The position numbers were made by a program, and so were the translations under genes. This document shows positions 44,920-47,555 of a stretch of 64,000 nucleotides of DNA, piece by piece (position 1 is the stretch's first letter; every line of letters starts with the position of its first letter). A model generated the notes under the pieces. The model saw nothing but the letters and a program-made list of their open reading frames with translations. It did not search any database and was not told the DNA's origin. The stretch spans positions 1 through 64,000 of the forward strand of contig CASEDP010000003.1 in the NCBI GenBank assembly GCA_949286835.1, given 5' to 3'. This DNA is from an uncultured Clostridia bacterium (GTDB lineage: Bacteria; Bacillota; Clostridia; Christensenellales; Borkfalkiaceae).

Positions 44920-45318
44920 ATGATGATAACGACGAAGGGCAGGAACGCGCTCAAGGTGATGCTCGACCTTGCCCAGCACGATGACGGAAATCCCGTCTCG
45001 CTTACAGATATAGCCGAAAGAGTGAGGGAATCGCAGAAATACCTCGAAAGCACCGTCTCGCAACTCTCGCAGAAGGGGCTCATCACCTCGACGCGCGGCA
45101 AGAGCGGCGGCTATCGCCTCGCAAAGCCCGTCGGCGAATATACCGTTGCGGAGATTATAACTGCGGCAGAGGGTTCGCTTGCGCCCGTTTCGTGCGTCAG
45201 CGGCGAAATCACCTGCGAAAACGCCTGCAACTGTCTTTCGCTTCCGCTATGGAAGGAGCTCGACGAGGTCATTATGAACTTCCTCACTTCCAAGACGCTT
45301 GCAGATTTGCTGAAATAA
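44920..45318 (+). CDS. Rrf2 family regulator, possible Fe-S sensor (IscR-like)
   Basis: A 132-aa winged-helix regulator with MMITTKGRNALKVMLDLA at the start, QKYLESTVSQLSQKGLITSTRGKSGGYRLAKP (recognition helix and wing) and a Cys-rich loop: Cys92, Cys99, Cys103 and Cys105. IscR has three cluster cysteines in the same loop, so an iron-sulfur cluster is plausible here, while CymR lacks them. It lies 65 bp after nadA behind GGGAGGG. The repeats before nadA and before the desulfurase gene are its likely operators, which would make nadA-rrf2 autoregulated. Confidence 0.85.
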   Translation: MMITTKGRNALKVMLDLAQHDDGNPVSLTDIAERVRESQKYLESTVSQLSQKGLITSTRGKSGGYRLAKPVGEYTVAEIITAAEGSLAPVSCVSGEITCENACNCLSLPLWKELDEVIMNFLTSKTLADLLK

Positions 45319-45352: not shown

Positions 45353-45377
45353 AATTCCTATTGACAAAATAGGAATT
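45353..45377 (+). promoter_or_regulatory. Candidate Rrf2 operator 1 of the desulfurase promoter
   Basis: Inverted repeat AATTCCTA (45353-45360), N9, TAGGAATT (45370-45377). The arms match perfectly. The 9-base centre contains the whole -35 element, so a bound regulator would block RNA polymerase. Confidence 0.7.
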
Positions 45378-45389
45378 ACTTTTTATAAT
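45361..45389 (+). promoter_or_regulatory. Consensus promoter of the cysteine desulfurase gene
   Basis: TTGACA (45361-45366), 17-bp spacer, TATAAT (45384-45389): perfect consensus. Confidence 0.88.
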
Positions 45390-45478: not shown

Positions 45479-46672
45479 ATGGTTAAGACGGTCTATGTCG
45501 ACAATGCCGCAACCACGGCGATGAGCGACGAAGCCATAGCGGCAATGATGCCCTATCTCAAGGAGAACTACGGCAATCCTTCATCGCTGCACACGGTGGG
45601 GCAGAGGGCAAAGGAGGCGCTGGAAGACGCGCGCGCACGTATAGCAAAGCTGTTGGGCGCAGATCCTAAGGAAATTTACTTCACCTCGGGCGGCAGCGAG
45701 GCGGACAACCAGGCAATACGTTCGGCGGCGTATGCGGGACTTGCAAAGGGCAAGAAGCACATAATAACTACGGCGTTTGAACATCACGCAGTGCTGCACA
45801 CCTGCAAAAAGCTCGAAAAGGAGGGGTTCGAGGTCACCTATCTTGACGTCCATTCCGACGGGCTTATATCCGCAGAGGAGGTCGGAAGGGCAATACGTTC
45901 CGATACGGCGCTCGTGACCATAATGTATGCCAACAACGAGGTCGGCACAATCGAGCCGATAAGCGAAATCGGTGCGGTCTGCAGGGCGCACAAGGTCGTT
46001 TTCCACTGCGATGCGGTGCAGGCGGCGGGACATATCCCCGTCGACGTCGTAAAGGACAACATAGATATGCTGTCGCTCTCCGCGCATAAATTCCACGGTC
46101 CAAAGGGCGTCGGGCTGCTCTATTGCAGAAAGGGCATAGTGCTAAGAAACCTCATAGAGGGCGGCGCGCAGGAGCGCAGCCGCAGGGCGGGTACCGAAAA
46201 TATAGCGGGCATATGCGGTATGGCGGCGGCACTCGAGGCGGCAATCGCCCGCCTTCCCGAAAATATGGAGAGGGAGAGGCGTCTTCGGGACAAGCTGATT
46301 GACGGGTTGACAAAGGTGCCGCACAGCAAGCTGAACGGCAGCAGGAACGTCCGTCTGCCCGGCAACGTCAATATCTGTTTCGAGGGGATAGAGGGCGAAA
46401 GTCTCCTGCTCCTTCTCGACGCAAAGGGGATATGCGCTTCGTCCGGTTCGGCGTGCACGTCGGGTTCTTTGGACCCCTCGCACGTCCTTCTTGCGCTCGG
46501 GCTTCCGCACGAGGTGGCGCACGGCTCCTTAAGGCTCAGCCTTTCGGAGTACAACACCGAGGAGGAGATAGACTATATCATAGAGGAAGTTCCCAAAGTG
46601 GTCGAATATCTCCGCTCCATTTCCCCCGTCTGGGAAGAACTGGAAAAGGGCGAAAGAAAACATCTCATTTAA
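45479..46672 (+). CDS. Cysteine desulfurase (NifS/IscS family)
   Basis: PLP enzyme of 397 aa that takes sulfur from cysteine for Fe-S clusters and tRNA thiolation. The PLP lysine is Lys204 in [10 protein letters not shown], and the persulfide Cys326 sits in the long loop [10 protein letters not shown], which marks the IscS/NifS (class I) branch. EHHAVLHT and HCDAVQAAG are cofactor segments. GGGAG precedes the start. It is followed, beyond a hairpin-rich element, by IscU and a TtcA-like enzyme, both users of its sulfur. Confidence 0.92.
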
Positions 46673-46679
46673 GGGGTTT

Positions 46680-47084
46680 CGTTGATTTTGTTTTCTGGTG
46701 ACGAAAACAAAACCAACGATTTTGAGGGCGTTGCCCTCGGCGGCGCAATCTCTAAGCGCTCTCAAATATAATAATTGCGCCGCCTTCACCTACCGAGGTC
46801 GCAAGCGACAAATTGAGTGCGCTGGCGCAAAAGCGTGGTTTTGCTTGCGCTCGTAAATAGTTTAGGAAACAGCAATCACCTGTTATTTACCTGCTTCTTT
46901 TAATAATTTACTGAAAAAGCAAAAATCACACTTTTTGCTTTTTCACCCTGTTTGCGCATACCTGCGCCTGAGCGGAGGGAATGCCCTCAATTCAGTAATA
47001 TGAGAGCCCTTGTTATTGAGGGCAGGGAGGCAGAGCCTCCAAAAATCGTCAATTTTGTCGCTGTCACCAGGCGACAAAATTACG
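46680..47084. mobile_element. Hairpin-rich element with structured terminal inverted repeats (MITE-like)
   Basis: About 405 bp without coding potential. The left end folds as a 16-bp hairpin (46680-46695 with 46703-46718, loop TGGTGAC) then GAGGGC-GTT-GCCCTC (46724-46738). The right end, read backwards, is CGT-AATTTTGTCGC with the loop CTGGTGACA, then GGAGGC-TCT-GCCTCC (47026-47040 inverted). The ends are thus inverted copies of each other, and where bases differ both stem arms changed together. Inside are GGCGGCGCAAT/ATTGCGCCGCC (46739-46749, 46774-46784) and AAAAAGCAAAAA/TTTTTGCTTTTT (46915-46941). No transposase or obvious target-site duplication is seen. It lies eight bases after the desulfurase stop. 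Confidence 0.6.
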
Positions 47085-47111
47085 AAAAATTAAATTTGTA
47101 AGGAGTATTTT

Positions 47112-47555
47112 ATGGCATTATACAGCGAAAAGGTAATGGATCATTTCACCAACCCCAGGAATGTCGGAAAGCTCGACGACGCCGACGGCATAGGCGAGGT
47201 GGGCAACGCCAAGTGCGGCGACATAATGAAGATATATATCAAGGTGAAGGACGGAATAATCACCGACGTCAAGTTCAACACGTTCGGCTGCGGCAGTGCA
47301 ATCGCGTCCTCTTCTATGGCTACGGAGATGATTAAGGGCAAGCCCCTCTCACAGGCGCTGGAGCTGACAAACAAGGCGGTTGCGGAGGCGCTCGACGGGC
47401 TTCCCGCACACAAATTGCACTGCTCCGTGCTCGCGGAGGAGGCAATCCGCGCGGCAATCAAAAATTATTATGACAGGAACGGCATAGAGTACGACCACTC
47501 GCAGTTCCCCGACGCCTCGGAAGAGGAAGAGCACGCCGCCGAAGAGCAGGACTGA
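47112..47555 (+). CDS. iscU: Fe-S cluster scaffold protein (IscU/NifU N-terminal type)
   Basis: Scaffold of 147 aa on which [2Fe-2S] and [4Fe-4S] clusters are built. Cluster ligands Cys35 with Asp37 (AKCGD), Cys60 (FGCGSAIASSS) and His103-Cys104 (LHCSVLAEEA) are all present. The last 15 residues are an acidic tail (SEEEEHAAEEQD) that typical IscU lacks. A strong AAGGAG site lies upstream; the gene sits 28 bp after the structured element. No iscA, hscA/B or fdx follows, which is normal for the short Clostridia-type set. Confidence 0.92.
   Translation: MALYSEKVMDHFTNPRNVGKLDDADGIGEVGNAKCGDIMKIYIKVKDGIITDVKFNTFGCGSAIASSSMATEMIKGKPLSQALELTNKAVAEALDGLPAHKLHCSVLAEEAIRAAIKNYYDRNGIEYDHSQFPDASEEEEHAAEEQD

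Follow-up and report, generated by a model that had tools for sequence, protein, structure and literature searches.

The window, a stretch of 64,000 nucleotides of contig CASEDP010000003.1 from the genome of an uncultured Clostridia bacterium (G000, 1.57 Mb; the own genome in what follows), carries two neighboring genes that we take, judging by their sequences, to be the cysteine desulfurase gene iscS and the scaffold gene iscU. The spacer between them (46673-47111) is filled by two inverted units of about 190 bp that belong to one dispersed repeat and lie tail to tail. Unit 1 lies on the plus strand and spans 46679 to about 46872. Unit 2 reads in the opposite direction, on the minus strand, from 47085 to about 46891, and the two tails meet at 46873-46890. 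A covariance model of the B-E core of the repeat (R1) matches at 46724-46851 (+) and at 46912-47040 (-). The features are as follows.

45479-46672, plus strand: iscS, cysteine desulfurase, 397 amino acids, left neighbor; orthologues adjoin iscU in relatives.
46679-46872, plus strand: unit 1, hairpins A to E and tail; R1 match at 46724-46851 with 127.8 bits and an E value of 1e-27; limits from the comparison of copies, the exact 3' limit carrying an uncertainty of about 10 to 20 nt.
46679-46719, plus strand: hairpin A of unit 1 (A1), loop CTGGTGAC, with a mismatch in place of the family-wide bulge.
46724-46738, plus strand: hairpin B of unit 1 (B1), GAGGGC-GTT-GCCCTC; helix 1 of the covariation analysis, which covaries.
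46739-46784, plus strand: hairpin C of unit 1, 11 bp with a 24-nt loop; all 10 modelled pairs covary.
46798-46809, plus strand: hairpin D of unit 1, GTCGC-AA-GCGAC, from the covariation analysis.
46818-46851, plus strand: hairpin E of unit 1, helices 4 and 5 of the covariation analysis.
46873-46890, no strand: junction of the two tails, from the sequence.
46891-47085, minus strand: unit 2, inverted with respect to unit 1; R1 match at 46912-47040 with 91.1 bits and an E value of 5e-19.
46912-46945, minus strand: hairpin E of unit 2, a perfect hairpin of 14 bp and an alternative E module.
46982-47024, minus strand: hairpin C of unit 2, a perfect hairpin of 10 bp.
47026-47040, minus strand: hairpin B of unit 2 (B2), GGAGGC/GCCTCC, from the sequence.
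47046-47085, minus strand: hairpin A of unit 2 (A2), with an extrahelical G on the 3' arm, from the bulge scoring of A hairpins.
47112-47555, plus strand: iscU, scaffold protein, 147 amino acids, right neighbor.

Upstream of iscS, a perfect-consensus promoter at 45353-45389 (TTGACA, 17 nt, TATAAT) overlaps the inverted repeat AATTCCTA/TAGGAATT, and a gene for an Rrf2-type regulator (44920-45318) lies just before it. Judged by its sequence, this inverted repeat looks like a putative IscR-type operator.

The folding of the block far exceeds chance. As single-stranded DNA, 46673-47084 folds with a z score of -9.8 against 100 dinucleotide shuffles. The block contains 105 base pairs in perfect hairpins, where shuffled sequences contain 22 on average and 88 at most, and it holds five hairpins of at least 10 bp, compared with 10 summed over 300 shuffles. 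The original prediction had described the two ends of the block as inverted copies of each other, each a double hairpin, and this holds over 46679-47085, where A1 and B1 face A2 and B2. The stem differences that it quoted are correct to the letter: GTTTTC/GAAAAC against GTCGC/GCGAC, and GAGGGC/GCCCTC against GGAGGC/GCCTCC. Further perfect hairpins do lie inside (46912-46945, 46739-46784, and 46982-47024, with 14, 11, and 10 bp). The block does part the desulfurase gene from iscU and encodes no transposase. In contrast, the idea of one element with terminal inverted repeats had to be given up, as the end-to-end inversion is an arrangement of two units and not a property of the element itself.

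A single unit is composed of hairpin A, a T-rich spacer, hairpins B and C (the latter with a loop of 20 to 30 nt), a TTCAC-type linker, hairpins D and E, and an AT-rich tail with the consensus GTTAATTATTTTAAA. Hairpin A thus stands at one end and the tail at the other, where the head does not recur in inverted form. The letters of the stems vary, those of the loops and linkers being conserved. Of 63 copies in which hairpin A could be scored, 53 have one extrahelical base on the 3' arm, mostly at 3 to 4 bp from the foot, and none has one on the 5' arm. This base is a mark of polarity; in hairpins handled as single-stranded DNA, such one-sided irregularities distinguish the active strand. The hairpin feet read TTCAC, TTTCG, TTAAC, and similar in the copies listed. 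On the minus strand, the foot of hairpin A in the window's species has CGTC, a motif lacking in most species of the genus.

Units occur singly, as direct tandems, and as inverted pairs. Long forms, in which B and the stretch from D to E contain additional hairpin-rich inserts, are found at L057 1480-2180 and L054 1930-2440 (contigs 8 and 4 of the own genome), and further species of the genus have comparable long forms with other letters. Solo hairpins that consist of two outer A arms lie near 1680-1730 of L317 (G028) and near 4510-4545 of L059 (G000). These are possible excision scars, such as the loss of everything inside an inverted pair of units would leave.

The repeat family is dispersed and restricted to one genus. 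BLASTN of the block against the own genome, a check that had been proposed with the original prediction, retrieved 25 places at E values of 0.001 or below, with further ones at weaker E values. R1 finds the repeat in 33 of 37 sampled genomes of the genus, and a search of 24 other genera of the order returned one marginal match only (E value of 0.007). The hosts are Clostridia MAGs of Candidatus Coproplasma and its kin, many of gut origin. Counts per genome cover only the candidates scored by R1 and are bounded by their number. Copies were counted in stretches of two copy-rich genomes: G002 presents 32 in 260 kb, about one per 8 kb, and G014 presents 26 in 140 kb, in stretches partly picked for matches, which gives 58 copies in 400 kb. 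Extrapolated from these stretches, a whole rich genome probably has roughly 200 copies or more, and genomes across the genus would range from dozens to probably hundreds. Two exact motifs of the repeat are absent from IMG/VR, and the block has no match in phage or plasmid records.

Comparison with relatives shows filled and empty sites. The iscS-iscU spacer is mostly 9 to 180 nt long and free of the element in relatives; a unit is present at the same place in G028, a different variant in G029, and an apparent remnant in G035. The corresponding spacer of G025 (L257) is 812 nt long, with an unusual GCATATGC-rich composition that is apparently unrelated to the repeat. At other element sites of the own genome, compared with its nearest relatives G018 and G028, about 11 of 13 loci are empty in G018 and 2 are filled, while G028 is empty at several and shows a solo hairpin A alone at one. 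Because orthologous sites are empty in relatives, the repeat moves and is not a fixed part of the operon. The mobile, non-autonomous character that had been suggested for the block is therefore supported by the empty orthologous sites and by the many copies in genome and genus. One site, at 146 kb on contig 4, aligns nearly to the base: where the empty allele of G018 shows CTCCTTATTTATGTCTA, the own genome carries an insertion of about 226 bp. The exact ends of the element rest on this one alignable site, where ATTTA on both sides of the insertion is a possible target duplication of 5 bp, read from the sequence of this single case.

The stems covary almost without exception. In the alignment of 94 distinct copies, each of the 29 modelled pairs has changed on both sides, and 96.5% of the cells are paired; shuffling lowers this share to 72%, and sliding the partners to 55% or less. 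Copies from G002 and G014, which are largely independent since few of them relate to the R1 training set, covary at 28 of 29 pairs with 94% of cells paired. Since both alignments were made by fitting copies to the model, they lean in its favor; even so, an effect this large, set against the slid controls, can hardly be an artefact. The covariation check proposed at the outset therefore finds stem pairing kept among the copies.

The kind of base pairs seen in these stems bears on the level at which pairing is kept. For an RNA fold under selection, G-U pairs are expected far above A-C mismatches, and the stems of the repeat do not show that: there are 20 G-U against 29 A-C among 2,574 cells of the first set, and 18 against 29 among 1,555 cells of the second (G002 and G014). 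As a control, the acceptor and T stems of 43 tRNAs (own genome and related loci) were scored position by position and gave 41 G-U against 8 A-C among 516 cells, which differs from the repeat with a Fisher p of 2e-5. Moreover, in 24 comparisons of copies that differ at one stem pair, the change is two-sided in 20 and one-sided in 4, these comparisons not being phylogenetically independent. The lack of a G-U excess over A-C, together with near-identical copies that usually differ on both arms, indicates that the palindromes are kept at the DNA level. Selection for the fold, as originally predicted for RNA or single-stranded DNA, is supported in the sense of a constant structure, with the base-pair statistics placing it at the DNA level.

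The five-hairpin architecture remains constant while the letters of the stems turn over on both arms together. Orthologous sites of G000 and G028 may bear different A, B, and C stems, and among 26 copies of these two genomes the module variants are combined in 25 different ways. In RNA genes, template switching has been described as a mechanism that rewrites hairpins (PMC8794818). The changes on two arms and the mixing of modules fit one-step template switching combined with the exchange of whole modules between copies.

The position of the repeat relative to genes is asymmetric. In the first set, a gene boundary is no more than 30 nt away from the A end in 43 of 71 cases and from the tail end in 15 of 76 (p = 6e-7), at gene starts and gene stops alike; the same count in the second set gives 23 of 52 and 4 of 51 (p = 3e-5). 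Orientation to the flanking genes is unbiased in the first set (34:37 upstream and 36:40 downstream) and leans 32:20 and 32:19 in the second. Terminator and promoter signals are at chance level, and such functions of the repeat were discarded.

We consider it improbable that the repeat is a structured RNA, whether a cis-element or a small RNA, that is under selection for its fold, was propagated by recombination or in the manner of a retro-element, and acts on neighboring mRNAs such as that of iscS-iscU. Strong covariation, a stable fold, conserved loops, and an intergenic location beside genes agree with such an RNA, but G-U is not preferred to A-C, an Rfam search gave no match near the gathering score, copies of the first set have no orientation bias to their flanking genes, and reverse transcriptase is lacking in the own genome and in several high-copy genomes. 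The first three of these points also speak against the processed RNA that was originally envisaged for the block. As template switching could mask a G-U signal, the RNA explanation is weakened rather than excluded, and a role of some copies as RNA as well is compatible with the pairing data.

About equally low is the likelihood of a transposon-derived MITE, in which a DDE transposase would use the outward A hairpins as terminal inverted repeats (TIRs) and move the 405-bp pair as one unit. The A hairpins of the window do point outward, like TIRs, and ATTTA flanks the one cleanly resolved insertion. Nevertheless, a search downstream of 83 copies for a further hairpin A found an inverted one above the score threshold in none and a direct tandem in 17. 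Single units and tandems are common, the tail end has no inverted copy of the head, and the candidate duplication is seen at one site only. Ordinary intergenic DNA with accumulated hairpins, or a conserved operon spacer of local function, would suit an element lying between two genes of one operon but is refuted by copies across genome and genus and by the mostly element-free spacers of relatives.

Candidates for a mobilizer were sought among Y1 transposases, reverse transcriptases, and genes framed by elements. Y1 transposases (PF01797) occur in 12 of 38 genomes of the genus; they are absent from the copy-rich G002, G014, G016, and G030 and present in G012, G025, and G032, where no repeat was found. 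The loci around Y1 genes contain no significant copy. With neither correlation to copy number nor linkage, the Y1 transposase was rejected as the mobilizer. The only PF01797 match of the own genome is a broken pseudogene (L070; contig 10, 89173-89426). Reverse transcriptase (PF00078) was not found in G000, G002, G016, G028, G030, and G035; it was likewise rejected, with a presence unrelated to copy number and an absence from the own and several high-copy genomes. In 400 kb of G002 and G014, none of the genes framed by elements is mobilizer-like, and no parent transposon with the same ends was seen. An autonomous copy with an enclosed gene was rejected for these stretches, the enclosed genes resembling housekeeping genes by their appearance.

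The explanation that we regard as likely, taken as a whole, is that of a pair of mobile DNA repeats with pairing kept at the DNA level, mobilization as single-stranded DNA, template switching, and a tolerated insertion in the isc operon. A non-autonomous repeat of about 190 bp has spread through the intergenic DNA of the genus around Candidatus Coproplasma, and the unit would be mobilized as folded single-stranded DNA. Hairpin A, with its extrahelical base on the 3' arm near the foot, would be the strand-specific signal for a putative recombinase or transposase. New stem variants would arise in single steps, by template switching in the hairpin or by exchange of whole modules between copies. 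The copy pair in the isc operon would be an insertion tolerated in a short spacer, neutral for the operon and no dedicated regulator; the tuning of the IscS:IscU ratio suggested at first would depend on an element that most relatives lack in this spacer. The model does not account for the A end lying so near to genes, which counts against it, as does the failure to find a mobilizer or an autonomous copy in the searches described above. More tentatively, and with considerable doubt, the unit may be a five-hairpin single-stranded DNA recognized by its fold and not by its letters, moved by an enzyme that is neither of the Y1/RAYT type nor based on reverse transcription, with stems rewritten by template switching while nothing but the architecture, the loops, and one extrahelical base stays conserved across a genus.

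Several known systems resemble the repeat. REP, BIME, and REPIN sequences (TnpA-REP/RAYT) are likewise gene-less, intergenic, high-copy palindromes found as singles, tandems, and inverted pairs, with a hairpin whose one-sided irregularity is important in E. coli for strand-specific recognition of single-stranded DNA (PMC8266576, PMC3733652, PMC3116915); binding of E. coli TnpA-REP to the REP hairpin requires the bulge (PMC8266576). In contrast to the REP palindrome of 20 to 50 nt, the present unit has about 190 bp and five hairpins, lacks the GTAG tetranucleotide at the hairpin foot, and turns its stems over completely, and Y1/RAYT genes neither follow its copy number nor have a linked copy. 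The CGTC-tagged REPs are also high-copy palindromes with no known dedicated transposase (PMC3733652), and the A foot of the window's species reads CGTC on the other strand, whereas the present unit is a composite of five hairpins; membership was rejected, as the foot CGTC is found on the minus strand in some species only. Repetitive hairpin-forming elements of mitochondria are intergenic and non-coding, with one to several hairpins and apparent repeated invasions (PMC2800124). Their stems are conserved and their loops vary, the reverse of the present repeat, and hosts and sequences are unrelated.

MITEs and BOX-type modular repeats share with the repeat a short, non-coding, modular make-up and insertion beside genes. 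Unlike MITEs, the single unit has no TIRs. A possible target duplication (ATTTA) was observed at one site, and no parent transposon was seen in 400 kb of G002 and G014. Extrahelical bases set the strand at the ends of IS200/IS605 elements and at integron attC sites. Both are hairpins read as folded single-stranded DNA (PMC8266576). Unlike IS200/IS605, the repeat has no linked Y1 gene, and unlike attC, it shows no attC core motif and no enclosed cassette genes in the 400 kb of G002 and G014. Since the repeat falls outside the definitions of REP (unit size, GTAG, RAYT) and of MITE (unit TIRs), it was filed as non-autonomous palindromic mobile DNA, and the best reading is that of a structure-defined mobile DNA family that is REP- and MITE-like in lifestyle.

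The family offers a natural data set of dozens of species, with copies probably in the hundreds per rich genome and compensatory changes almost without G-U intermediates, which allows a direct test of whether hairpins evolve through stepwise compensation or through template switching in one step. A further lesson is that perfect covariation alone is no proof of RNA, given that without the comparison of G-U with A-C the repeat would pass as a well-supported RNA motif. Should the mobilizer be found, it could prove to be a single-strand DNA recombinase of a new type.
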